NCBI GenBank assembly: GCA_025989215.1
Contig: JAPDNP010000009.1
Span: 62,001 to 126,000, forward strand
Direction: 5' to 3'
Length of the DNA stretch: 64,000 nucleotides
Source of the DNA: Neisseriaceae bacterium JH1-16
GTDB taxonomy: Bacteria > Pseudomonadota > Gammaproteobacteria > Burkholderiales > Chromobacteriaceae
Below the pieces are notes generated by a model. The model did no database searches and was not told the DNA's origin. It saw only the letters and a program-made list of their open reading frames with translations. The position numbers were made by a program, and so were the translations under genes. This document shows, piece after piece, positions 17,908 through 28,717 of the stretch; within the stretch, counting starts at the first letter, position 1; every line of letters starts with the position of its first letter.

Positions 17908-17946
17908 ACGCGGCGCCCGGCGGGACAATGCCGCCGGGCGCCGCGT
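17908..17946 (-). terminator. Terminator of the scoAB operon
   Basis: A perfect 16-bp GC-rich stem (ACGCGGCGCCCGGCGG side) with a 7-base loop, followed on the minus strand by TCTTTTT. It lies 43 bp after the scoB stop codon. Confidence 0.85.
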
Positions 17947-17989: not shown

Positions 17990-18634
17990 TCAGGCGAACT
18001 GCAACGACACCGCCGTTTTGGCGGAGATCTCCTCGCGGCTGACGCCCGGCGCCAGCTCCAGCACCTCCAGCCCCTTGCTGCCGACCTGCAGCACCCCAAG
18101 ATCGGTGATGATCAGGTCGACCACGCCGACGCCGGTGAGCGGCAGCGTGCAGGCGGGCAGCAGCTTGAGGTCCTCGCTGCCGTCCTTCTTCTTGGCAGTG
18201 TGCTCCATCAGCACGATCACCCGCTCCACGCCGGCCACCAGATCCATCGCCCCGCCCATGCCCTTCACCATCTTGCCGGGGATCATCCAGTTGGCCAGGT
18301 CGCCGGTTTCGCTCACCTGCATCGCGCCCAGGATCGCCAGGTTGATCTTGCCGCCGCGGATCATGCCGAACGAGTCGGCCGAACTGAAGATCGCCGTGCC
18401 TGGCAAGGTGGTGATGGTCTGCTTGCCGGCGTTGATCAGGTCGGCGTCGACCTCGTCGTCGGTCGGGAACGGCCCGATGCCGAGCAAGCCGTTTTCCGAC
18501 TGCAGCCATACTTCGACATCGGCCGGCACATGGTTGGCCACCTGGGTCGGCAGGCCGATGCCCAGGTTCACGTAGAAGCCGTCCTGCAGTTCTTTCGCGG
18601 CGCGCGCCGCCATTTCGTCACGAGTCCAGGCCAT
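17990..18634 (-). CDS. scoB: 3-oxoacid CoA-transferase subunit B
   Basis: Beta subunit of succinyl-CoA:3-ketoacid (acetoacetate) CoA-transferase, which activates acetoacetate to acetoacetyl-CoA. 214 residues. The catalytic glutamate is in [13 protein letters not shown] (about residue 47), and [11 protein letters not shown] near the N terminus is typical. It starts 10 bp after the scoA stop. Together with bdhA next door it gives a route from 3-hydroxybutyrate through acetoacetate to acetyl-CoA. Confidence 0.93.
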
Positions 18635-18644
18635 GGGGCGCTCC

Positions 18645-19346
18645 TCAGTCTGCGGCGCGCACGGTGCGCTGCTCGATGCGTTTCTCGGGGGTGGCGTTCA
18701 CCACCAGACGGTGCACGAAGATGCCCGGGGTGTGGATCGCGTCCGGGTCGAGCTCGCCGTTCTCGACGATCTCCTCTACCTCGGCCACGGTAATCTTGCC
18801 GGCCATCGCCACATTCGGATTGAAGTTGCGCGCGGTGCGACGGTAGACCAGATTGCCGGCGCGGTCGGCCTTCCAGGCCTTGACCAGCGACACGTCGGCG
18901 GTCAGCGCCTGTTCGAGGATGTGCGGATGACCGTTGAACTCGCGCACCTCCTTGCCCTCGGCCACCCAGGTGCCGTAGCCGGTGCGGGTGAAGAAGGCCG
19001 GGATGCCGCTGCCGCCGGCGCGCAGCTTTTCGGCCAAGGTGCCCTGCGGGGTGAATTCCAACTCCAGTTCGCCGGCCAGATACTGGCGCTCGAACTCCTT
19101 GTTCTCGCCCACATAGGACGAAATCATCTTGCGGATCTGGCGGGTTTCCAGCAACTGGCCGAGGCCGAAACCATCCACCCCGGCGTTGTTGGAGATCGCG
19201 GTGATCCCGGTGACGCCGCTGTCGCGCAATGCCGCGATCAGCGCCTCGGGGATGCCACACAGGCCGAAGCCGCCGACCGCGACGGTCTGCCCGTCGCGCA
19301 CGATGTCGGCCAGCGCCTCGGCGGCGCTCGGATAAAGCTTGTTCAT
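18645..19346 (-). CDS. scoA: 3-oxoacid CoA-transferase subunit A
   Basis: Alpha subunit of the acetoacetate CoA-transferase, 233 residues. Family signatures: [16 protein letters not shown] with the oxyanion glycines, [13 protein letters not shown], and the C-terminal [10 protein letters not shown]. The ATG is preceded by AAGGAA; a longer in-frame extension upstream is not conserved. The 356-bp gap between its start and bdhA carries repeat copy B and must hold the promoter. No sigma-54 site of the kind seen before the permease was found there. Confidence 0.93.
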
Positions 19347-19565
19347 CGTCGGTTCCTTGCAAAGCGGGCCGCGGGTTACGGCCCGGTGAATCATGGCGGA
19401 CAGCGGTAGTCCCGTCTGCCCCATCCTGCAAAACAGCGGGCCGGAACGTTTTCCGCTCCCGACCCGGTCACTGACAAAGCCCAATCGTACGGGTCCCGAA
19501 GAAACCCGGCCCTAGACAGTAACAGTAGCCGCACGCAGCGAAAAGGTGGAGCGTGCCGCTTGTCT

Positions 19566-19699
19566 AGAATCTGTTTATGATTTCGCGAACGAAGGGTCAA
19601 TGACACGAAAAGGCGGAGTGCACTCATCGGGTAGACTGGCATGTTGAGATGCGTTTCAACGCAGAGTCCCCCGAGTGCAGCAGGCCGCGAACAGGTTCT
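19566..19699 (-). repeat. Dispersed repeat family 1, copy B (inverted, degraded)
   Basis: 134 bp. The minus strand reads AGAACCTGTTCGCGGCCTGC at one end and AAACAGATTCT at the other, with CTGCACTCGGG, CTCTGCGTTGAAACGC and CCTTCGTTCGCGAAATCAT between, matching copies A and C. One end lies 3 bp after the bdhA stop codon. Confidence 0.7.
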
Positions 19700-19702
19700 G
19701 CG

Positions 19703-20479
19703 TTATTGCGCCGTCCAGCCGCCATCCATGGTCCAGGCCACGCCGCGCACCTCGGCCGCCGCCTCGCTGGCGAGGAACAAGGTCAGCGCGCCCAACTGCG
19801 CCGGAGTGACAAAGGCGCCAGACGGCTGCTTTTCGGCCAACAGCAGTGCCTGCGCCTGCGCCTGGCTCAAGCCCTGTTCGCGCGCCTTGGCCTCGATCTG
19901 CCGGGCCACCAGCGGCGTCAGCACCCAGCCCGGACACAGCGCGTTGCAGGTGATGCCGGAATGCGCCTGCTCCAGCGCCACCGTCTTGGTCAGGCCGACC
20001 AGGCCGTGCTTGGCCGCCACGTAGGCCGACTTGTTGGCCGAGGCGACGAGACCGTGCACCGAGGCGATGTTGACGATGCGCCCCCAGTGCCGCTCGCGCA
20101 TCGCTGGCAGCGCCAGCCGTATGGTGTGGAAGGCGGCGGAGAGGTTGATCGCCAGCACGTCGTCCCACTTCTCGGTCGGGAAGTCGTCGATGGGCGCGAC
20201 ATGCTGGATGCCGGCGTTGTTGACCAGGATATCGACTGCGCCGAACTCGGCAGCGGCATAGGCCATCATCGCGGCGATCTCGTCCGGGCGGCGCAGGTCG
20301 GCGCCATGGTGAGCGACAGCCACGCCGTGAACGGCGATCTGCTCGCGGGCGCTATCGACCTCGCCGAAGCCATTGAGCACGATGTTGGCTCCGGCTTCGG
20401 CCAGGGCAGTAGCGATACCGAGACCGATGCCGCTGGTCGAGCCGGTGATCAGGGCGGTTTTTCCGTGTAATGACGTCAT
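19703..20479 (-). CDS. bdhA: D-3-hydroxybutyrate dehydrogenase
   Basis: 258-residue short-chain dehydrogenase that oxidises 3-hydroxybutyrate to acetoacetate with NAD. NAD-binding TGSTSGIG is at residues 13-20, NNAGI is near 88, and the catalytic set is Ser in IASVHG and Tyr/Lys in SAYVAAKHG. KQPSGAFVTPAQLG is a BdhA-type segment. It follows the GntP-family permease by 54 bp, with a hairpin (CCGAAGGC/GCCTTCGG at 20493-20514) in the gap, and lies near scoAB, which makes the substrate assignment firm. Confidence 0.93.
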   Translation of the reverse strand: MTSLHGKTALITGSTSGIGLGIATALAEAGANIVLNGFGEVDSAREQIAVHGVAVAHHGADLRRPDEIAAMMAYAAAEFGAVDILVNNAGIQHVAPIDDFPTEKWDDVLAINLSAAFHTIRLALPAMRERHWGRIVNIASVHGLVASANKSAYVAAKHGLVGLTKTVALEQAHSGITCNALCPGWVLTPLVARQIEAKAREQGLSQAQAQALLLAEKQPSGAFVTPAQLGALTLFLASEAAAEVRGVAWTMDGGWTAQ

Positions 20480-20533: not shown

Positions 20534-21925
20534 TCAGACCAGGCCGGTCAGGTAGAAGGTCGTAATGACCACGAACACCGCCAGTGTCTTGATCACCGTC
20601 ACCGAGAAGATGTCGCGATACGCCTCGCGATGGGTCAGGCCAGTCACCGCCAGCAGCGTGATCACCGCGCCGTTGTGCGGCAGCGTATCCATGCCGCCGC
20701 TGGCCATCGCCACCACCCGGTGCAGCACATCGAGCGGAATGCCGGCGGCCTGGCTCAGCATGATGAATTTATCGCCCATCGCGGCCAGCGCGATGCTCAT
20801 GCCGCCCGAAGCCGAGCCGGTGATGCCGGCCAGCGAGCTGACCGTCACCGCCGCGTTGACCAGCGGATTCGGGATGCTCTCGAGCGCGTGGCCGACCAAC
20901 AAGAAGCCAGGCAGCGCGGCGATCACCGCGCCGAAGCCGTACTCGGACGCGGTGTTCATCGACGCCAGCATCGCGCCGCCGATCGCCGCTTTGGTGCCGT
21001 CGGCAAACCGGCTGCGGATGGTGCCGAAGGCGGTCACCACCACGAACAGGATGCCCAGCAGCAGCGCCGCCTCCACCGACCAGATCGCGGTCACGGTGGA
21101 AATCTGCGTCGACACCGGCTTGGCGAGGCCCGGCAACGCCAGCTCGTGACTCGCGCCGTACCAATGCGGAATCAGCTTGGTGAAGCTGAAGTTAGCGACG
21201 CCGATCAGCACCAGCGGCGCGATCGCCAGCCACGGCGACGGCAGGTTGGCGGTGTCGATCGGCTCCGGCTCGTTCGACAGATTGCTGCCGTAGCCCTCCC
21301 CCTTCGCCATCAGGCTGCGGCGGCGCCACTCCAGGTAGCAGATGCCGACGATGATGATGAACACCGCACCGACCACGCCCAGCGCCGGCGCCGCCCAGGC
21401 AGTGGTCTTGAAGAAGGTCGTCGGGATGATGTTCTGGATCTGCGGCGTGCCCGGCAGCGCGTCCATGGTGAACGAGAACGCACCCAAGGCCACCGTGCCC
21501 GGGATCAGCCGCTTCGGGATATTGCTCTGGCGGAACAGCTCGGCGGCGAACGGATACACCGCAAACACCACCACGAACAGCGACACGCCACCGTAGGTCA
21601 ACAGCGCGCACACCGTCACGATCACCGCGATCGCGCGCTTCTCGCCGATCCAGCGGATCACCGCCGCGACGATGGACTTGGAAAAGCCCGACAGCTCGAC
21701 CAGCTTGCCGAACACCGAACCGAGCAGAAACACCGGGAAGTACAGCTTGATGAAACCGACCATCTTCTCCATGAATACCCCGGAGAACACCGGCGCGACC
21801 GCAGACGGCTCGGTCAGCAGCACCGCACCGAGCGCGGCGATCGGCGCCATCAGGATGACGCTGTAGCCACGATACGCAGCCAGCATCAGGAAGATCAGTG
21901 CGGCAAGCACCACGATAAAGCTCAT
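20534..21925 (-). CDS. GntP-family permease, probably 3-hydroxybutyrate uptake
   Basis: 463 residues with about twelve to fourteen membrane segments. GntP-family traits: VFLLGSVFGKLVELSGFSKSIV, TYGGVSLFVVVFAVYPFAAELF, FTMDALPGTPQIQNIIPTTFF and GITGSASGGMSIAL. A near-perfect ribosome site (AAAGGAGAT) precedes the ATG I chose; the longer reading frame upstream is not conserved. Operon partner bdhA and the adjacent sigma-54 activator match the hydroxybutyrate loci of pseudomonads (HbcR-permease-BdhA), so 3-hydroxybutyrate is the likely substrate rather than gluconate. Confidence 0.88.
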   Translation of the reverse strand: MSFIVVLAALIFLMLAAYRGYSVILMAPIAALGAVLLTEPSAVAPVFSGVFMEKMVGFIKLYFPVFLLGSVFGKLVELSGFSKSIVAAVIRWIGEKRAIAVIVTVCALLTYGGVSLFVVVFAVYPFAAELFRQSNIPKRLIPGTVALGAFSFTMDALPGTPQIQNIIPTTFFKTTAWAAPALGVVGAVFIIIVGICYLEWRRRSLMAKGEGYGSNLSNEPEPIDTANLPSPWLAIAPLVLIGVANFSFTKLIPHWYGASHELALPGLAKPVSTQISTVTAIWSVEAALLLGILFVVVTAFGTIRSRFADGTKAAIGGAMLASMNTASEYGFGAVIAALPGFLLVGHALESIPNPLVNAAVTVSSLAGITGSASGGMSIALAAMGDKFIMLSQAAGIPLDVLHRVVAMASGGMDTLPHNGAVITLLAVTGLTHREAYRDIFSVTVIKTLAVFVVITTFYLTGLV

Positions 21926-22064: not shown

Positions 22065-22081
22065 AGCAGGAAGTATGCCAA
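22065..22081 (-). promoter_or_regulatory. Sigma-54 (-24/-12) promoter for permease-bdhA
   Basis: On the minus strand TTGGCATACTTCCTGCT matches the RpoN pattern: GG and GC dinucleotides separated by exactly ten bases, TTGGCA at -24 and TGCT at -12. It lies about 140 bp upstream of the permease ATG, and the neighbouring gene encodes a sigma-54-dependent activator. The two central positions deviate from the best consensus. Confidence 0.75.
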
Positions 22082-22142
22082 CTATTAAAACCTATAAAAA
22101 TCAATGAACTGCATGGAAACAGAGATTAATACAGGGAGAGCG

Positions 22143-22160
22143 CGTCTCGAAATCGAGACG
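22143..22160. promoter_or_regulatory. Upstream activator site 1
   Basis: CGTCTCGAAATCGAGACG is an 18-bp perfect palindrome except for the two-base AA centre. First of three related sites between the sigma-54 promoter and its activator gene; its edge is 62 bp from the promoter. Confidence 0.75.
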
Positions 22161-22226
22161 GCGGAAAAGGCTGTTGCATTGCAGCAACGCGTAAAGAATC
22201 ATCCACTTAACATGGAATCGCATGGC

Positions 22227-22244
22227 CGTCTCGATATGGAGACG
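22227..22244. promoter_or_regulatory. Upstream activator site 2
   Basis: CGTCTCGATATGGAGACG has the same CGTCTC/GAGACG arms and the same 18-bp length as site 1. Centre-to-centre distance from site 1 is 84 bp, i.e. eight helical turns. Confidence 0.75.
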
Positions 22245-22246
22245 GC

Positions 22247-22264
22247 CGTCTCGCTTCGGAGACG
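22247..22264. promoter_or_regulatory. Upstream activator site 3
   Basis: CGTCTCGCTTCGGAGACG has the same arms. It is spaced 20 bp centre-to-centre from site 2, so the two would face the same side of the helix. A TTGGCCGAA copy starts 6 bp further on. Confidence 0.75.
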
Positions 22265-22336: not shown

Positions 22337-23761
22337 TCAGCGCGGCGCGATGTCCAGCGCGGCGAGCTTCTTGTACAGGGTGGCGCGGCCGATACCGAGC
22401 CGAGCGGCAGCGCTCGGCACATGGCCGTCGCAGGCGGCCAGCGCGTCGCGCAGCAGTTGCGCCTCGAAGCCGGCCATTGCACTCTGGTAGGAGTGCGCGG
22501 CCTCTTCCGCGTCGAAGCGTGGCGGACTGGCCGGGCTGAGCAGCGGCACCACGTCGGCGACGTCGAGCACGCTGGTGTCGGCCAGCATGATCGCGCGCTC
22601 CAGGATGTTGCGCAGCTCGCGCACATTGCCCGGCCAGTCGTAGTCGGCGAGGCGCGCCAGCGCGGCGGCGCTGAGCCGGTACCGACCCGCCGCGCTGTTG
22701 CCGGCCAGCTCCGCCAGCAGCGCCTCGCACAGCTCGGCCAGGTCCGACAGCCGGTCGCGCAGCGGTGGCAGCTCGATCGCCAGCACATTCAGGCGGTAGA
22801 ACAGGTCGGCGCGGAACTCGCCGCGCTCGACCTTTTCGGCCAACCTGACCGAGGTGGCGGCGATGATGCGCACGTCCGAGTGCTGCACCTTGTTGGAACC
22901 GAGCGCCTCAAACTCCTTGTCCTGCAGCACCCGCAGCAGCTTGGCCTGCAGCGCCGGCGGCAAATCGCCGATCTCGTCGAGGAACAGCGTACCGCCGTCG
23001 GCGAGCTGGAACTTGCCGACCCTGCCCTTGCGGTCGGCACCGGTATAGGCGCCGGCGGTGGCGCCGAAGAACTCGGCCTCGAGCAGCGTCTCGGGAATCG
23101 CCGCCATATTGATCGTCACCAGCGGCTTGTGGGCGCGGCGGCTGGCGGCGTGGATCGCGTGCGCCAGCACCTCCTTGCCGGTGCCGGTCTCGCCCAACAG
23201 CAGCAGCGGCGAATCCATCTGCGCGGCGCGTTCGGCCTGGTGCTTGAGGGCGCGCGCCGCCTCGCTGCTGCCGATGAAACTGTCGAAGGTGTACTTGGCG
23301 CGGCGCGCCTGGGCCAGCGATTCGCGGGTGGCGACCAGTTCCTCACTGAGGCGGGCGAATTTGGCCAATAGCGGCGACATCGACTGCACCTCGTCGAACA
23401 ACGCGAAGCCGATCGCGCCGACCAGCTGGTCCTGATCGTCTTTCAGCGGCAGCCGCGTCACCACCAGCGTGCCCTGGCGGGTCTGCATGATGTCGAGCAG
23501 CATCGGTCGGCCGCTCGTCACCACCTCGCGCATCAGACTGTTGGGGATCACCTCCTCGACCTGCCGACCGATCGCCGCGGCCGGGTCGGCGAAACCGAAG
23601 CGGTCGGCGTAGCGGGCGTTGATCCAGACGATGCGCGCGCCGGCGTCGACGATCACCGTGCCCTCGCTGTAGTCCTCCAGCGATTCGAACAGCGACTGGA
23701 TCGCCCAGTGCCGCACGCTGCCATAGTCGCCCAACCGTTCGCTCAAGCCCTGCTCCGACAC
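22337..23761 (-). CDS. Sigma-54-dependent activator (HbcR-like, PAS sensor)
   Basis: 474 residues from a GTG preceded by GGGGAG. An N-terminal PAS-like sensor (about 25-125; EGTVIVDAGARIVWINARYADRFGF) is followed by the AAA+ domain (about 160-395) with Walker A GETGTGKE (190-197), the sigma-54 loop as GAYTGA (237-242, tyrosine for the usual phenylalanine), Walker B GGTLFLDEIGDL and WPGNVREL. A Fis-type helix-turn-helix lies at the C terminus. There is no receiver domain, so it senses a ligand directly. By context it activates the permease-bdhA operon through the three CGTCTC/GAGACG sites next to its 3' end. An ATG 63 bases upstream is an alternative start. Confidence 0.9.
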   Translation of the reverse strand: MSEQGLSERLGDYGSVRHWAIQSLFESLEDYSEGTVIVDAGARIVWINARYADRFGFADPAAAIGRQVEEVIPNSLMREVVTSGRPMLLDIMQTRQGTLVVTRLPLKDDQDQLVGAIGFALFDEVQSMSPLLAKFARLSEELVATRESLAQARRAKYTFDSFIGSSEAARALKHQAERAAQMDSPLLLLGETGTGKEVLAHAIHAASRRAHKPLVTINMAAIPETLLEAEFFGATAGAYTGADRKGRVGKFQLADGGTLFLDEIGDLPPALQAKLLRVLQDKEFEALGSNKVQHSDVRIIAATSVRLAEKVERGEFRADLFYRLNVLAIELPPLRDRLSDLAELCEALLAELAGNSAAGRYRLSAAALARLADYDWPGNVRELRNILERAIMLADTSVLDVADVVPLLSPASPPRFDAEEAAHSYQSAMAGFEAQLLRDALAACDGHVPSAAARLGIGRATLYKKLAALDIAPR

Positions 23762-23960
23762 GTCGCTACTCCCCTTTTTGGTTCCGGCCACAGGGTAGCA
23801 CGCGGTCGCGTTGCTGCCCCGCACCTCACTACATAGACATTATTGGAATAAAAACAGCGTTTCATATCACTTCATGTACTTATGTCGTCGCCGTATAGTC
23901 AGTTCACCACGCTGCATTGCAGCATTCAGCTTGCCCACTACGGAAGAACGGAGGACGGAC

Positions 23961-24338: not shown

Positions 24339-24365
24339 CGATGCTGCCCGATGAGAAAGCTCACG

Positions 24366-25298
24366 ATGCCTGCCCATATTGTCCCCTCCCGCCACTGGCG
24401 CGACGAACTGCCGATCGAACACGAATGGCCGACCTGGCTGCTGATCGCGGCCGTCTACGCCGGCTGGTTTGCCGCGGTCGCCCTCGCGCAGCGCCTGGGT
24501 GCGCTGCCCAGCGCCATCCTGCTGGCGCTGATCGTCTGCTGGTACGGCTCGCTGCAGCACGAGCTGCTGCACGGTCACCCCACCCGTTCGGCGCGGCTCA
24601 ACCGGCTGCTCGGCCTGGCGCCGTTGGCGGTGTGGTTTCCCTACGACCTGTACCGCGCGAGCCACCTGCGCCACCACCGCGACCCGCTGCTGACGCTGCC
24701 CGGCGAAGACCCGGAAAGCAATTACGTGACCGAGACCGACTGGGCCCGGCTCGCCACGCCGCTGCGCTGGACGTACCTGGCGCGGCGCACACTGCTCGGC
24801 CGTGCGCTGGTGGGGCCGGCCTTCGCCATCGCGCTGACCTGGCGCGACATCGTCGCCCAGCCCCGGCGTGGCGACTGGAGCGAGACGATGAGCTGGCTCG
24901 AACACCTGCCGCTGCTGGCCTTGCTGTTGTGGGCACTCGATCGCTACGCCGGCATCTCGCCGCTGTTCTACCTGGCCGCCGTCGCCTATCCGGCGCTGTC
25001 GCTGACGCTGGTGCGCTCCTTCTACGAGCACCGCCCGGCCGATACGCCGGCGCACCGCATCTGCCTGAACGAGGCGAATTGGGCCTGGCGGCTCTTGTTC
25101 CTCAACAACAACTACCACCTGGTGCACCACGAGCAGCCGTCGCTGCCCTGGTACCGGATACCCGCGGTGTACCGGGCGCGACGCGACGAGTACATCGCCA
25201 AGAGCGGCGGTTTCCTGCTGCCCGGCTACGGCGCGTTGTGGTGCCGCTTCGCCTGGCGGCGGGTCGACTCGCCGGTACTGCCGGAGGCGCGATCATGA
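24366..25298 (+). CDS. Membrane fatty acid desaturase-family protein
   Basis: 310 residues from the ATG with GAGAAAG upstream (an ATG 15 bases earlier is possible). The three histidine boxes of the di-iron membrane desaturase/hydroxylase superfamily are intact: HELLHGH (about 65-71), HLRHH (about 100-104) and HLVHHEQP (about 251-258), between hydrophobic spans. Substrate unknown: acyl lipid desaturation, or hydroxylation of a small amine such as carnitine- or betaine-type compounds, are both possible for this superfamily. It overlaps the next gene (ATGA) and lies upstream of a betaine-type ABC transporter, which hints at a quaternary-amine substrate. Confidence 0.82.
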   Translation: MPAHIVPSRHWRDELPIEHEWPTWLLIAAVYAGWFAAVALAQRLGALPSAILLALIVCWYGSLQHELLHGHPTRSARLNRLLGLAPLAVWFPYDLYRASHLRHHRDPLLTLPGEDPESNYVTETDWARLATPLRWTYLARRTLLGRALVGPAFAIALTWRDIVAQPRRGDWSETMSWLEHLPLLALLLWALDRYAGISPLFYLAAVAYPALSLTLVRSFYEHRPADTPAHRICLNEANWAWRLLFLNNNYHLVHHEQPSLPWYRIPAVYRARRDEYIAKSGGFLLPGYGALWCRFAWRRVDSPVLPEARS

Positions 25299-26104
25299 GC
25301 CACTGGCAAGCCGCCCTGCCGATGTACAACGTCGGCGACGAGGTCACCGGGCTGTACCGGCTGTGGCTGGAGCGCATCCTGGCGCGACTGGTGGAGCGAG
25401 GCTTTGGCGAGTCGGTGGCGTTGGCCGAACCGGACGAATCGCTACTCGACTGGTGGCAGCGCGACGACTTGCTGCTGTCGCAGACCTGCGGCTACCCGCT
25501 GATGACCCGGCTGCGCGAGCGGGTAGTGCCGCTGGCCATCCCCGCCTATCGCTACGCCGGCTGCCAGAGCGGCTTCTATCGCAGCGCACTGCTGGTACCG
25601 GCCGACTCGACGATCCGCCAGCTGTCCGACGCGCGCGGCCGAAGGGTGGTCGCCAACCAGCCCGACTCGCACAGCGGCATGAACGCGCTGCGCGCCGCAG
25701 TGGCGCCGTTGGCCGAAGGCGGCCGCTTCTTCGGCTCGGTTACCTGGTCGGGCAGCCACGTCGCCAGCATCGAGGCGCTGCTGGCTGGCTCGGCCGACCT
25801 GGCCGCGATCGACGCGGTCACCTACGCCTATCTGCTGCGGCAGCGCCCCGACCTGAAGACCGCGCTGCGCCGCATCGGCTGGACCGCGCCGGCGCCCGGC
25901 CTGCCGCTGATCGCCGGCCGGCGCGTACCGCCGCAATGGCGCAGCGTACTGACCGGGCTGATCGTCGCCTCCTCGCAACAGGATCGCGCTATTCTTGATG
26001 CACTTGGCATTGACCGCTTCGTCCCCTGCCACTGGCGCGACTACCGCACCATCTTGTCGCTGGAGGCGGGCGCGCAACAACATGGTTACCCGGAGTTGGC
26101 CTGA
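25295..26104 (+). CDS. PhnD-like substrate-binding-fold protein without signal peptide
   Basis: 269 residues of the PhnD (phosphate/phosphonate periplasmic binding) fold: an early MYNV-type strand, GYPLMT, the hinge RGRRVVANQPDSHSGMNALR, TWSGSHVASIEALLAGSADLAAIDAVTYAYL, and a final helical part. There is no signal peptide or lipobox, although PhnD proteins are normally exported. The start is fixed by the ATGA overlap with the desaturase gene, so it may be a cytoplasmic ligand sensor or enzyme partner. Two TTGGCCGAA copies lie inside. Repeat copy C starts on its stop codon. Confidence 0.72.
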   Translation: MSHWQAALPMYNVGDEVTGLYRLWLERILARLVERGFGESVALAEPDESLLDWWQRDDLLLSQTCGYPLMTRLRERVVPLAIPAYRYAGCQSGFYRSALLVPADSTIRQLSDARGRRVVANQPDSHSGMNALRAAVAPLAEGGRFFGSVTWSGSHVASIEALLAGSADLAAIDAVTYAYLLRQRPDLKTALRRIGWTAPAPGLPLIAGRRVPPQWRSVLTGLIVASSQQDRAILDALGIDRFVPCHWRDYRTILSLEAGAQQHGYPELA

Positions 26105-26246
26105 GAACCTGCTTACGATCTGCTGCACTCGGGTGATCCTGCGCTGAAACGCCACTAAAAATGCTCATGTACTTCATGTACATTCCACTTTTTCGCGTCA
26201 TTTCGCCTTGGCTGACCCTTCGTTCGCGAGAACTTAAACAGGTTCT
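26104..26246. repeat. Dispersed repeat family 1, copy C
   Basis: 143 bp from AGAACCTGCTTACGATCTGC to AAACAGGTTCT, same orientation as copy A. It starts on the last base of the TGA stop of the PhnD-like gene. The ends are inverted repeats of each other (AGAACCTG and CAGGTTCT). Confidence 0.78.
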
Positions 26247-26330
26247 GAGGCCCGTGCCTTCACGCTGTCGCGGCACAAACCCGATAAACGCTTATAACTC
26301 AAACTACATACAACCCGAAGGAAGAAGCCG

Positions 26331-27374
26331 ATGATCCGTTCCGCCCTGTCCTTGTCGCTCGCCGCCGTGTTCGCCGGCAGCCTGGCCCTGACCGCAGTGC
26401 CGGCCAATGCCGCCACCGCGTCCACCTGGTGCAACGCCGGCAAGCCGCTGAAGTTCGCCGGCCTCAACTGGGAGAGCGCCTCCTTCCTGACCGAACTGCT
26501 GCGCCTCGTCACCGAGAAGGGCTACGGCTGTCAGACCGAGTCGATTCCAGGCAGCACCGTGACGATGGAGAACGCGCTGGCTAGCAACGACGTGCAGGTG
26601 TTGGCCGAGGAATGGGTGGGCCGCAGCGACGCCTGGAACGACGCGGCCAAGGCCGGCAAGGTCAAGGCGCTGGGCAAGACCATCGTCGGCGCGTCGGAGG
26701 GCTGGTACGTACCCGACTATCTGGTGAAGGGCGACGCCAAGCGCGGCATCAAGCCGGCCGCCGCCGGGCTCACGTCGGTCGCCGACCTGCCCAAGTACAA
26801 GGCGGTGTTCAAGGACGCCGAGGAGCCGGGCAAGGGCCGCTTCCTCAACTGCCCGACCGGCTGGAGCTGCGAGGGCGTCAACAGCCAGAAGCTGAAGGCC
26901 TACAAGCTGACCGACAGCTACACCAACTTCCGCCCCGGCACCGGCGCGGCGCTCGACGCCGAGATCGCCTCGGCCTACCAGCGCGGCAAGCCGGTGCTGT
27001 TCTATTACTGGGCGCCAACCGCGCTGTTCGGCAAGTACCGCTTCGTGCAGCTGAAGGAGCCGGCCTACAACGAGGCCTGCTTCAAGACCCTGTCGGACAA
27101 GGACAACGCCGCACCGTGCGGCTCGGCTTCGCCGGCGGCGCTGATCCAGGTCGGCGTGTCCAAAGCGCTGAACGACAGCGACCCGGCACTGGTGGCCTTC
27201 TTCAGCAAGTTCAACGTGCCGATCGAGCTGCTCAACAAGACGCTGGCCGACCAGGCCGAGCACAAGACGCCGTGGCCGCAACTGGCGCGCGACTTCGTGC
27301 GCCAGCACCCGGAGGTGGTGAAGGGCTGGGTGCCGGCCGACGTGTCGACCAAGGTGATCGCCGCGGCGAAGTAA
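26331..27374 (+). CDS. Betaine/choline-type ABC transporter substrate-binding protein
   Basis: 347 residues with a Sec signal peptide (cleavage near VPANAATA). It has the ProX/OpuAC fold: the early LNWESASFLTELL, GSTVTMENALASNDVQV, and NCPTGWSCEGVNSQKLKAY followed by YYWAPTALFGKY. OpuAC proteins bind glycine betaine, choline or proline betaine between aromatic residues; Trp and Tyr residues are abundant in the expected places, but the ligand is not fixed by sequence. The ATG has GAAGGAAG upstream. It is separated from its permease and ATPase by a small unrelated membrane gene. Confidence 0.87.
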   Translation: MIRSALSLSLAAVFAGSLALTAVPANAATASTWCNAGKPLKFAGLNWESASFLTELLRLVTEKGYGCQTESIPGSTVTMENALASNDVQVLAEEWVGRSDAWNDAAKAGKVKALGKTIVGASEGWYVPDYLVKGDAKRGIKPAAAGLTSVADLPKYKAVFKDAEEPGKGRFLNCPTGWSCEGVNSQKLKAYKLTDSYTNFRPGTGAALDAEIASAYQRGKPVLFYYWAPTALFGKYRFVQLKEPAYNEACFKTLSDKDNAAPCGSASPAALIQVGVSKALNDSDPALVAFFSKFNVPIELLNKTLADQAEHKTPWPQLARDFVRQHPEVVKGWVPADVSTKVIAAAK

Positions 27375-27485
27375 GCGACCACGCTTAAAGCGCCGCCGAC
27401 AACGCTACGGGCGTTCTGTTGGCAGCGCTGAACGAGACGCCGGGCTTCACCGGCGTCGCCCAACCCCACCCACCACGCACAGACC

Positions 27486-27758
27486 ATGACCGAGCAAAAC
27501 ATCGAACAACTGGCCCGCCGTCGCGCCGGCGCCAAGCTGGGCTTCTATATTCACGCACTCACTTTTGTACTAGTCATGAGCGGCCTCGCCGCATTGAACT
27601 ACCTGACCTCGCCCAAGCCGTGGAGCCTGGCACCGCTATTGGGCTGGGGCTTCGGGCTGACGATCCACGGCTTCACAGTGTTCGGTCGCGACCGGCTGTC
27701 GGGATTCAAGGAGCGGCTGGTCCAGGCCGAGCTAGAGAAACTGAAGAAGTCGAACTGA
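27486..27758 (+). CDS. 2TM-domain small membrane protein
   Basis: 90 residues with two hydrophobic segments (about 20-40 and 48-66) and basic flanks, fitting the 2TM domain often found fused to histidine kinases or free-standing. The C terminus is a charged helix (FKERLVQAELEKLKKSN). It sits between the binding protein and permease genes of an ABC transporter, an unusual position. It may be a regulator, a stabiliser of the permease, or an unrelated insertion. Confidence 0.72.
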   Translation: MTEQNIEQLARRRAGAKLGFYIHALTFVLVMSGLAALNYLTSPKPWSLAPLLGWGFGLTIHGFTVFGRDRLSGFKERLVQAELEKLKKSN

Positions 27759-27847
27759 CGGGCAGCCAGAAGGCCCTCCCCTGACAAGCGGCCGCTTCGG
27801 CCAACCTTTACCCCGTTACCAACGAATCGAGAAAGCGAGTATTGCGG

Positions 27848-28717
27848 ATGGAGTTTCCCGCACTGTCGATCAAGGACGCGATCAACGCGCTGGTCGGCTG
27901 GCTGGTCGAGCACTGGGGCGACCAGTTGCACGCGGTCAGCGATGCACTGCTGCAGTGGCTGCTGGTGCCGCTGGAGAGCACGCTGCGCGCCGCCCCGCCA
28001 TGGCTGATGCTGATCATCGTGGGCCTGCTCGCCGCCTACGCCACCCGCGACTGGAAGCGTACCGCGCTGTGGGTGGGCCTCTTGTACCTGATCGGCTGCT
28101 TCGGCCTGTGGGATGCGCTGATGCAGACGCTGGCCATCGTGCTCTTGTCCACCTTGCTGACGGTGCTGATCGGCCTGCCGCTGGGCATCGCGATGGCGAG
28201 GAGCGACAGGCTGCGCGCGGTGGTGCTGCCGGTGCTGGACGTGATGCAGACGCTGCCGTCCTTCGTCTACCTGATCCCGGTGCTGATGCTGTTCGGCCTG
28301 GGCAAGGTGCCGGCGATCTTCGCCACGCTGGTGTACGCGCTGCCACCGTTGGCGCGGATGACCGACCTCGGCATTCGCCAGGTCGACCGCGAGGTGCTGG
28401 AAGCGGCCGAGGCGTTCGGCAGCAACCGCTGGCAGCTGCTGTTCCTGGTGCAGCTGCCGCTGGCGCGGCCGAGCATCCTCGCCGGCATCAACCAGGCAAC
28501 GATGCTGGCGCTGTCGATGGTGGTGCTGGCGTCGATGATCGGCGCGCGCGGTCTAGGCGAGGACGTGCTGGTCGGCATCCAGACCCTCGACGTCGGTCGC
28601 GGCCTACAGGCGGGCCTGGCCATCGTGGTGCTGGCAGTGGTGATGGACCGCATCAGCCAGGCCTTCGGCCAGGACCGCCGCCAGAAGCTGGCGCTCTCTC
28701 GGGGGGACGCGCAATGA
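27848..28717 (+). CDS. Betaine/choline-type ABC transporter permease
   Basis: 289 residues from the ATG (a TTG two codons earlier is possible), with about six to seven membrane helices. The ABC permease contact loop reads EAAEAFGSNRWQLLFLVQLPLARPSILAGINQATMLALSMVV, as in ProW/OpuAB. The N-terminal amphipathic stretch before the first helix is also ProW-like. It pairs with the ATPase that starts inside its stop codon and probably with the binding protein at 26331-27374. Osmoprotectant or nutrient uptake is likely. Confidence 0.9.
   Translation: MEFPALSIKDAINALVGWLVEHWGDQLHAVSDALLQWLLVPLESTLRAAPPWLMLIIVGLLAAYATRDWKRTALWVGLLYLIGCFGLWDALMQTLAIVLLSTLLTVLIGLPLGIAMARSDRLRAVVLPVLDVMQTLPSFVYLIPVLMLFGLGKVPAIFATLVYALPPLARMTDLGIRQVDREVLEAAEAFGSNRWQLLFLVQLPLARPSILAGINQATMLALSMVVLASMIGARGLGEDVLVGIQTLDVGRGLQAGLAIVVLAVVMDRISQAFGQDRRQKLALSRGDAQ

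Follow-up and report, generated by a model that had tools for sequence, protein, structure and literature searches.

Positions 22065–22264 of the DNA analysed here, a 64,000-nucleotide stretch to which we refer as the window, very probably form the regulatory region of an operon for the import and use of (R)-3-hydroxybutyrate that depends on sigma-54 and is switched by an HbcR-type activator at three palindromes, as judged from the sequence and its relatives. According to the model that we propose, the activator, whose gene lies directly upstream in the same orientation, would sense (R)-3-hydroxybutyrate, directly or not, and activator dimers would bind three GTCTC-N6-GAGAC palindromes, namely a pair approximately 20 bp apart and one nearer the promoter. 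The bound activator would then form an AAA+ hexamer which, the DNA between site and promoter being bent (possibly by IHF), would remodel RNA polymerase-sigma54 held at TGGCAT-N7-TGC. The operon so controlled would consist of the permease gene, bdhA, and probably scoAB. (We infer activator binding, hexamer assembly, the action of IHF, induction by 3-hydroxybutyrate, and read-through into scoAB.)

Genes of the putative 3-hydroxybutyrate operon

All of the genes concerned are carried on the minus strand, in the order activator, permease, bdhA, scoA, scoB, and a gap of 411 bp separates the activator gene (22337–23824, with a nominal GTG start) from that of the permease (20534–21925). The activator protein matches the Pfam families Sigma54_activat, AAA_lid_14, HTH_8, and PAS_4, corresponding to PAS, AAA+, and Fis-type HTH domains, and the GAYTGA motif (that of the GAFTGA-type loop) as well as the Walker A and Walker B motifs could be located in it. 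The genome also contains an rpoN gene (TIGR02395, above cut-off). The 463-aa permease, submitted in a longer ORF form, had no Pfam or NCBIfam match; its designation as a candidate 3-hydroxybutyrate permease follows the annotation of relatives, and among plasmid-borne relatives many are annotated as "GntP family permease" and one as "D-beta-hydroxybutyrate permease". The products of bdhA (19703–20479; 3-hydroxybutyrate dehydrogenase, NCBIfam TIGR01963 PHB_DH), scoA (18645–19346, with a probable ATG at 19346; 3-oxoacid CoA-transferase subunit A, TIGR02429), and scoB (17990–18634; subunit B, TIGR02428) all scored above cut-off. On the same strand, 3' of scoB, is a strong intrinsic-terminator-like hairpin (17908–17946) with a 16-pair stem and a T tract, which as a match to the terminator consensus is the probable end of the operon.

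Beyond the activator gene, in the interval 24351–28717 on the plus strand, lie a gene of the fatty-acid-desaturase family (24351–25298) and a betaine/choline-type ABC transporter (26331–27374 and 27842–28717). Nothing in this interval showed a sign of belonging to the hydroxybutyrate operon.

Palindromic sites, sigma-54 element, and candidate IHF site

The three 18-bp sites with CGTCTC and GAGACG arms that the original prediction had placed at 22143, 22227, and 22247 are all present, free of mismatches, and spaced by 84 and 20 bp. Distal site 1 (CGTCTCGCTTCGGAGACG, 22247–22264), which has a counterpart in relatives, site 2 (CGTCTCGATATGGAGACG, 22227–22244), which is 20 bp from site 1, and promoter-proximal site 3 (CGTCTCGAAATCGAGACG, 22143–22160) are each a perfect CGTCTC-N6-GAGACG, and, measured from start to start, the 16-bp core of site 3 lies 79 bp upstream of the sigma-54 element. 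The -24/-12 element predicted ahead of the permease gene and bdhA is likewise there, at 22065–22080 on the minus strand (TGGCATACTTCCTGCT); it has the form GG-N10-GC, differs at two positions from the sigma-54 -24/-12 consensus TGGCACNNNNNTTGCW, and is of a kind that is conserved in relatives. Note that the element taken alone does not stand above chance, as the window contains 21 matches with two or fewer mismatches compared to 37 expected. Between site 3 and this element, at 22099–22111 on the minus strand, we found a candidate IHF site (CAGTTCATTGATT) with one mismatch to the IHF consensus YAANNNNTTGATW.

Conservation of the sites in relatives

From an alignment of nine permeases we took 80 named loci, which were the best 80 of 525 confirmed, added five more stretches from relatives, dropped one duplicate, and included the window. 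(Locus L025, which comes from the same record as L021, was left out of the counts of sites, distances, IHF-like sites, and promoters.) In 55 of the loci a relative of the activator adjoins the permease gene, in tandem in 18 and divergently in 37, and these activator-linked loci come from the genus of the window, Aquitalea, genera of the Burkholderiaceae, and Pseudomonas; the other 30 have no such gene within the flank examined.

Allowing one mismatch, we found at least one GTCTC-N6-GAGAC site in 54/55 activator-linked loci, at least two in 45, and at least three in 26, whereas none was found in the 30 permease loci without an adjoining activator (0/30); note that the loci are related, such that the counts are not independent, and that the two sets also differ in taxonomy. 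The activator-linked loci together contain 125 such sites, whereas 60 rounds of shuffling gave 0.38 on average. With two mismatches allowed, three or more sites are present in 53/55 loci, the shuffles total 9.5 sites, and 5/30 of the control loci have at least one. This search of orthologous loci was the check put forward with the original prediction, absence of the sites being the outcome that would refute it, and what it returned was the sites. It also modified the prediction in one respect, in that the CGTCTC and GAGACG arms are those of the window, and the core conserved across relatives is GTCTC-N6-GAGAC: the information resides in the GTCTC and GAGAC arms, the centre leans towards A/T, and the C and G at the outer ends of the arms in the window are only weakly conserved.

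Three perfect sites are found in a locus of the same genus as the window (L020). In the sole exception among the 55, L070, the layout is similar and all three sites are degenerate. This locus, on plasmid pplas3 of Cupriavidus necator, is a copy of the operon in which the activator and the sigma-54 element accompany degenerate activator sites upstream of the permease gene, possibly a copy that is decaying or has been retuned. Ten further loci outside the 55 and 30 (L117, L118, L120, L121, L131, L133, L134, L136, L152, and L153) all have a site with at most one mismatch (10/10); in L133, one site is good and the other two are degenerate. (Left out as duplicates were L119, which equals L021 and L025, L123, which equals L024, L124, which equals L023, and L122 and L135, which probably equal L026 and L043, respectively; part of the survey of further relatives scored four candidates per genome, and its tallies are lower bounds.)

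The sigma-54 element shows the same association. All 55 activator-linked loci have a GG-N10-GC match with two or fewer mismatches no more than 180 bp from the permease start (2.4 expected), compared to 2/30 loci without an adjoining activator (1.1 expected). An IHF site between enhancer and promoter is frequent in sigma-54 systems and is not obligatory. Such a site, with at most one mismatch, lies between the proximal activator site and the promoter in 19/54 loci compared to 3.5 expected. These comprise the window, its genus relative L020 (a perfect match at a nearly identical position), 4/4 Aquitalea loci (three of the four perfect), 11/12 Pseudomonas loci, and two from Paraburkholderia; at this cut-off none was found in the Burkholderia, Caballeronia, Trinickia, or Cupriavidus loci, or in most of those from Paraburkholderia.

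The sites accompany the permease promoter

In two genomes from another family of the same order (G558 and G750, which carry loci L152 and L153), the gene for the activator relative (66–71% identity) and that for the permease are on separate contigs, and the permease promoter keeps three sites together with a sigma-54 element. No site with at most one mismatch is present beside the unlinked activator gene in either genome, and in G722, which belongs to the same family, activator, permease, and sites are all linked. Because the three sites remain where the activator gene is on another contig, their presence is tied to the permease promoter, and the activator would act in trans. (Both assemblies are drafts, and the separation of contigs shows non-adjacency of the genes and no more than that.) That the palindromes are probably binding sites for the HbcR-like activator, as had been proposed, is supported both by the contrast between activator-linked and unlinked loci and by this retention of the sites at the promoter.

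A relative of the activator at E <= 1e-120 was found in 12/61 genomes of the window's family. Among eleven more distant relatives (50–57% identity; L125–L129 and L139–L144) that lack the permease in the flanks examined (at most 1.5 kb in each direction), a single site in L142 was the only one with no more than one mismatch to lie within 600 bp. Two others, L137 and L138 (54–56% identity), do have sites of the GTCTC-N6-GAGAC type beside the genes of these distant HbcR-like activators, upstream of an SDR gene (L137, 1394–1498) and of a gene for an ABC substrate-binding protein (L138, 2900–2995), which suggests a wider regulator family that might share one DNA code.

Alternative explanations for the palindromes

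One alternative is that the sites bind some other regulator, such as a repressor, rather than the adjoining sigma-54 activator. We consider this very unlikely, because the sites co-occur with the activator and because they are positioned upstream of the sigma-54 element at clustered distances, as is typical of sigma-54 enhancers. The DNA-binding domain bears on this alternative too. In an HTH alignment from 39 chosen loci, the residue that follows the Tyr of the presumed recognition helix is Lys or Arg in 25/25 site-linked activators, and also in L070, L130, and L132, whereas it is Glu or Gln in 10/11 activators without sites (the eleventh, L143, has Lys); this split may, however, reflect shared ancestry rather than specificity.

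The inverted repeats might instead be RNA hairpins, that is, terminators or processing signals that follow the activator gene. The repeats follow directly on the stop codon of the activator gene, and folding of the RNA strand is better than that of shuffled versions (z -3.4). Against this, no terminator-like site was called at the repeats, it is the letters of the arms themselves that are conserved and not merely their complementarity, the divergent orientation of the activator in 37/55 loci places the sites between two gene starts, and L152 and L153 have the repeats without an adjoining activator gene. An RNA hairpin or terminator is thus highly improbable, and we rejected it on the basis of the terminator scan and the relatives.

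That the sites are a dispersed repeat or chance palindromes has next to no probability and was rejected from genome counts, shuffles, and relatives: degenerate matches are common in the DNA of the window (27 with three or fewer mismatches, compared to 48 expected), but these three are the only perfect CGTCTC-N6-GAGACG matches in the whole genome (4,602,739 bp in 18 contigs), such sites recur ahead of the permease gene across many genera, and 2000 dinucleotide shuffles of the intergenic region yielded zero perfect 18-mers. Moreover, with two or fewer mismatches the pattern occurs at 173 places in the genome and its backwards version at 181, and in the absence of enrichment over this control the motif is not a dispersed repeat. 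A scan of the genome for other members of a regulon, with the pattern RTCTC-N6-GAGAY, returned 10 places compared to 3 for a reversed-pattern control. Three of the 10 are the sites described here, and the other seven, each of which lies inside a stop-to-stop frame of at least 150 codons, were not accepted as targets.

Spacing and helical geometry

We return to the reading of the palindromes as activator sites. The original prediction had described their spacing as whole helical turns. This applies to the window, where at 10.5 bp per turn the spacings of 84 and 20 bp amount to 8.0 and 1.9 turns; relatives, however, do not share the 84-bp spacing, and inter-site phasing is not general. In the 53 loci of the 55 that have three sites, the distal pair is close, at 18–23 bp apart, and the spacing from the middle to the proximal site varies between 32 and 199 bp. 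The 84 bp of the window is a local value (83 bp in the same-genus relative, and 84 bp in L131 and L152). Across unique genus-distance pairs, the middle-to-proximal spacing had R=0.33 for a 10.5-bp period (p ~0.05), and for Pseudomonas alone (n=11) R=0.67 (p ~0.008), where both p values are uncorrected for the eight periods tried. Whole-turn spacing between activator sites was therefore rejected as a general rule, given the 32- to 199-bp range and the R of 0.33.

The distance from the proximal site to the sigma-54 element is more constrained than the spacing between sites. It takes values of 65–68, 76–81, 90–92, 100–102, or 112 bp, with steps of approximately one helical turn. (L070 has no distance at the cut-off, and L042 has two sites only.) Among 33 tree-based pairs of loci, the distances differ by 0–2 bp in 26 and by 3–8 bp in none, and the remaining pairs differ by 9, 10, 10, 12, 22, 25, and 112 bp. 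The last of these differences is an artefact of L133, which was assigned a false distance of 192 bp and has a degenerate site that is actually 79 bp from the promoter, and the difference of 25 bp, which is between two distant loci, does not correspond to an integral number of turns of 10.5 bp. For 16 lineage values condensed by hand, phase coherence peaked at approximately 11–11.5 bp (R 0.82), which 0/20,000 uniform draws matched; when each lineage contributed a single value (n=10), the fraction of uniform draws was 0.0011. These figures are to be taken as approximate because the values were condensed by hand, the null was uniform, and the loci share ancestry; the best-fitting period is a little longer than 10.5 bp.

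With the nearest site moving in steps of approximately one turn (~66, 78, 91, 101, and 112 bp) and the distal pair free to vary (32 to 199 bp), we think it reasonably likely that the proximal dimer has to be oriented towards the polymerase on one fixed face of the helix, with the distal pair serving only to raise the local concentration of activator or complete the hexamer. The clustered spacing provides a comparative case for a helical-face constraint in sigma-54 activation, and if this reading is correct, the family of enhancers represents a natural experiment on enhancer geometry.

Control of scoAB

As originally predicted, scoAB has no such activator sites nearby. In the 356-bp gap between bdhA and scoA, the best match to the activator site has three mismatches (at 19652), which is chance level; the gap also contains no terminator-like site on that strand and no sigma-54 match with two or fewer mismatches. 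The accompanying suggestion that scoAB is controlled differently is doubtful, considering the short gaps in Aquitalea, where scoA begins 18–23 bp after bdhA in L023, L024, and L026, the lack of a terminator-like site before scoA, and the strong one after scoB. (The corresponding distance is ~165 bp in L021/L025 and ~207 bp in the same-genus relative.) We consider it probable that scoAB is co-transcribed with the permease gene and bdhA, with an additional promoter possible. Of note, the gap contains a GC-rich hairpin (CGGGT..ACCCG; 19490–19508), for which L020 has, by eye, a counterpart of other sequence and similar pairing. It is possible that this hairpin is a scoAB-specific control element.

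Comparison with known systems

The primary paper on HbcR of P. aeruginosa is that of Lundgren et al. (2015). HbcR (PA2005 in P. aeruginosa PAO1 and PFLU2630 in P. fluorescens SBW25) is RpoN-dependent and shares with the activator of the window a PAS domain and the sigma-54 activator type. In the 12 Pseudomonas loci the activator is 55–62% identical, the order activator, permease, bdhA is that of the window, and the sites are of the same kind, whereas the window differs in that scoAB follows bdhA. It is on these Pseudomonas relatives and on synteny that we base the probable assignment of the window's activator to the HbcR type. Published work names HbcR as the regulator of (R)-3-hydroxybutyrate catabolism in P. 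aeruginosa (PMC8694187, PMC8657755) and describes that, in P. fluorescens cells overexpressing HbcR, (R)-3-hydroxybutyrate activates HbcR and switches on the motility rescue reported there (PMC10482368). On the basis of conserved residues, the PAS domain of PA2005 has been described as one that binds an autoinducer (PMC8694187), so we treat direct sensing of 3-hydroxybutyrate as no more than a possibility.

Within the passages of the literature that were searched, we found no statement of a binding motif for HbcR, and the GTCTC-N6-GAGAC motif may already be in print. GcsR, an activator of the same class, is described in PMC4894688 as binding three palindromes of 18 bp each, positioned upstream of an RpoN element. 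The GcsR/TyrR-type sites at the P. aeruginosa gcvH2 promoter nevertheless differ from those of the window, as they have the motif TGTAACG-N4-CGTTCCG and serve another regulator and another operon.

The permease promoter could be tried as a sensor for 3-hydroxybutyrate. GTCTC-N6-GAGAC in three copies would amount to an explicit DNA code for the presumed 3-hydroxybutyrate regulator, from which its regulon could be predicted in several genera. A switch composed of a sigma-54 promoter and an enhancer-binding protein is well known as a type; what is added here is the conserved core motif, the three-site layout across genera, the independence of the sites from linkage to the activator gene, and the clustered spacing to the promoter.
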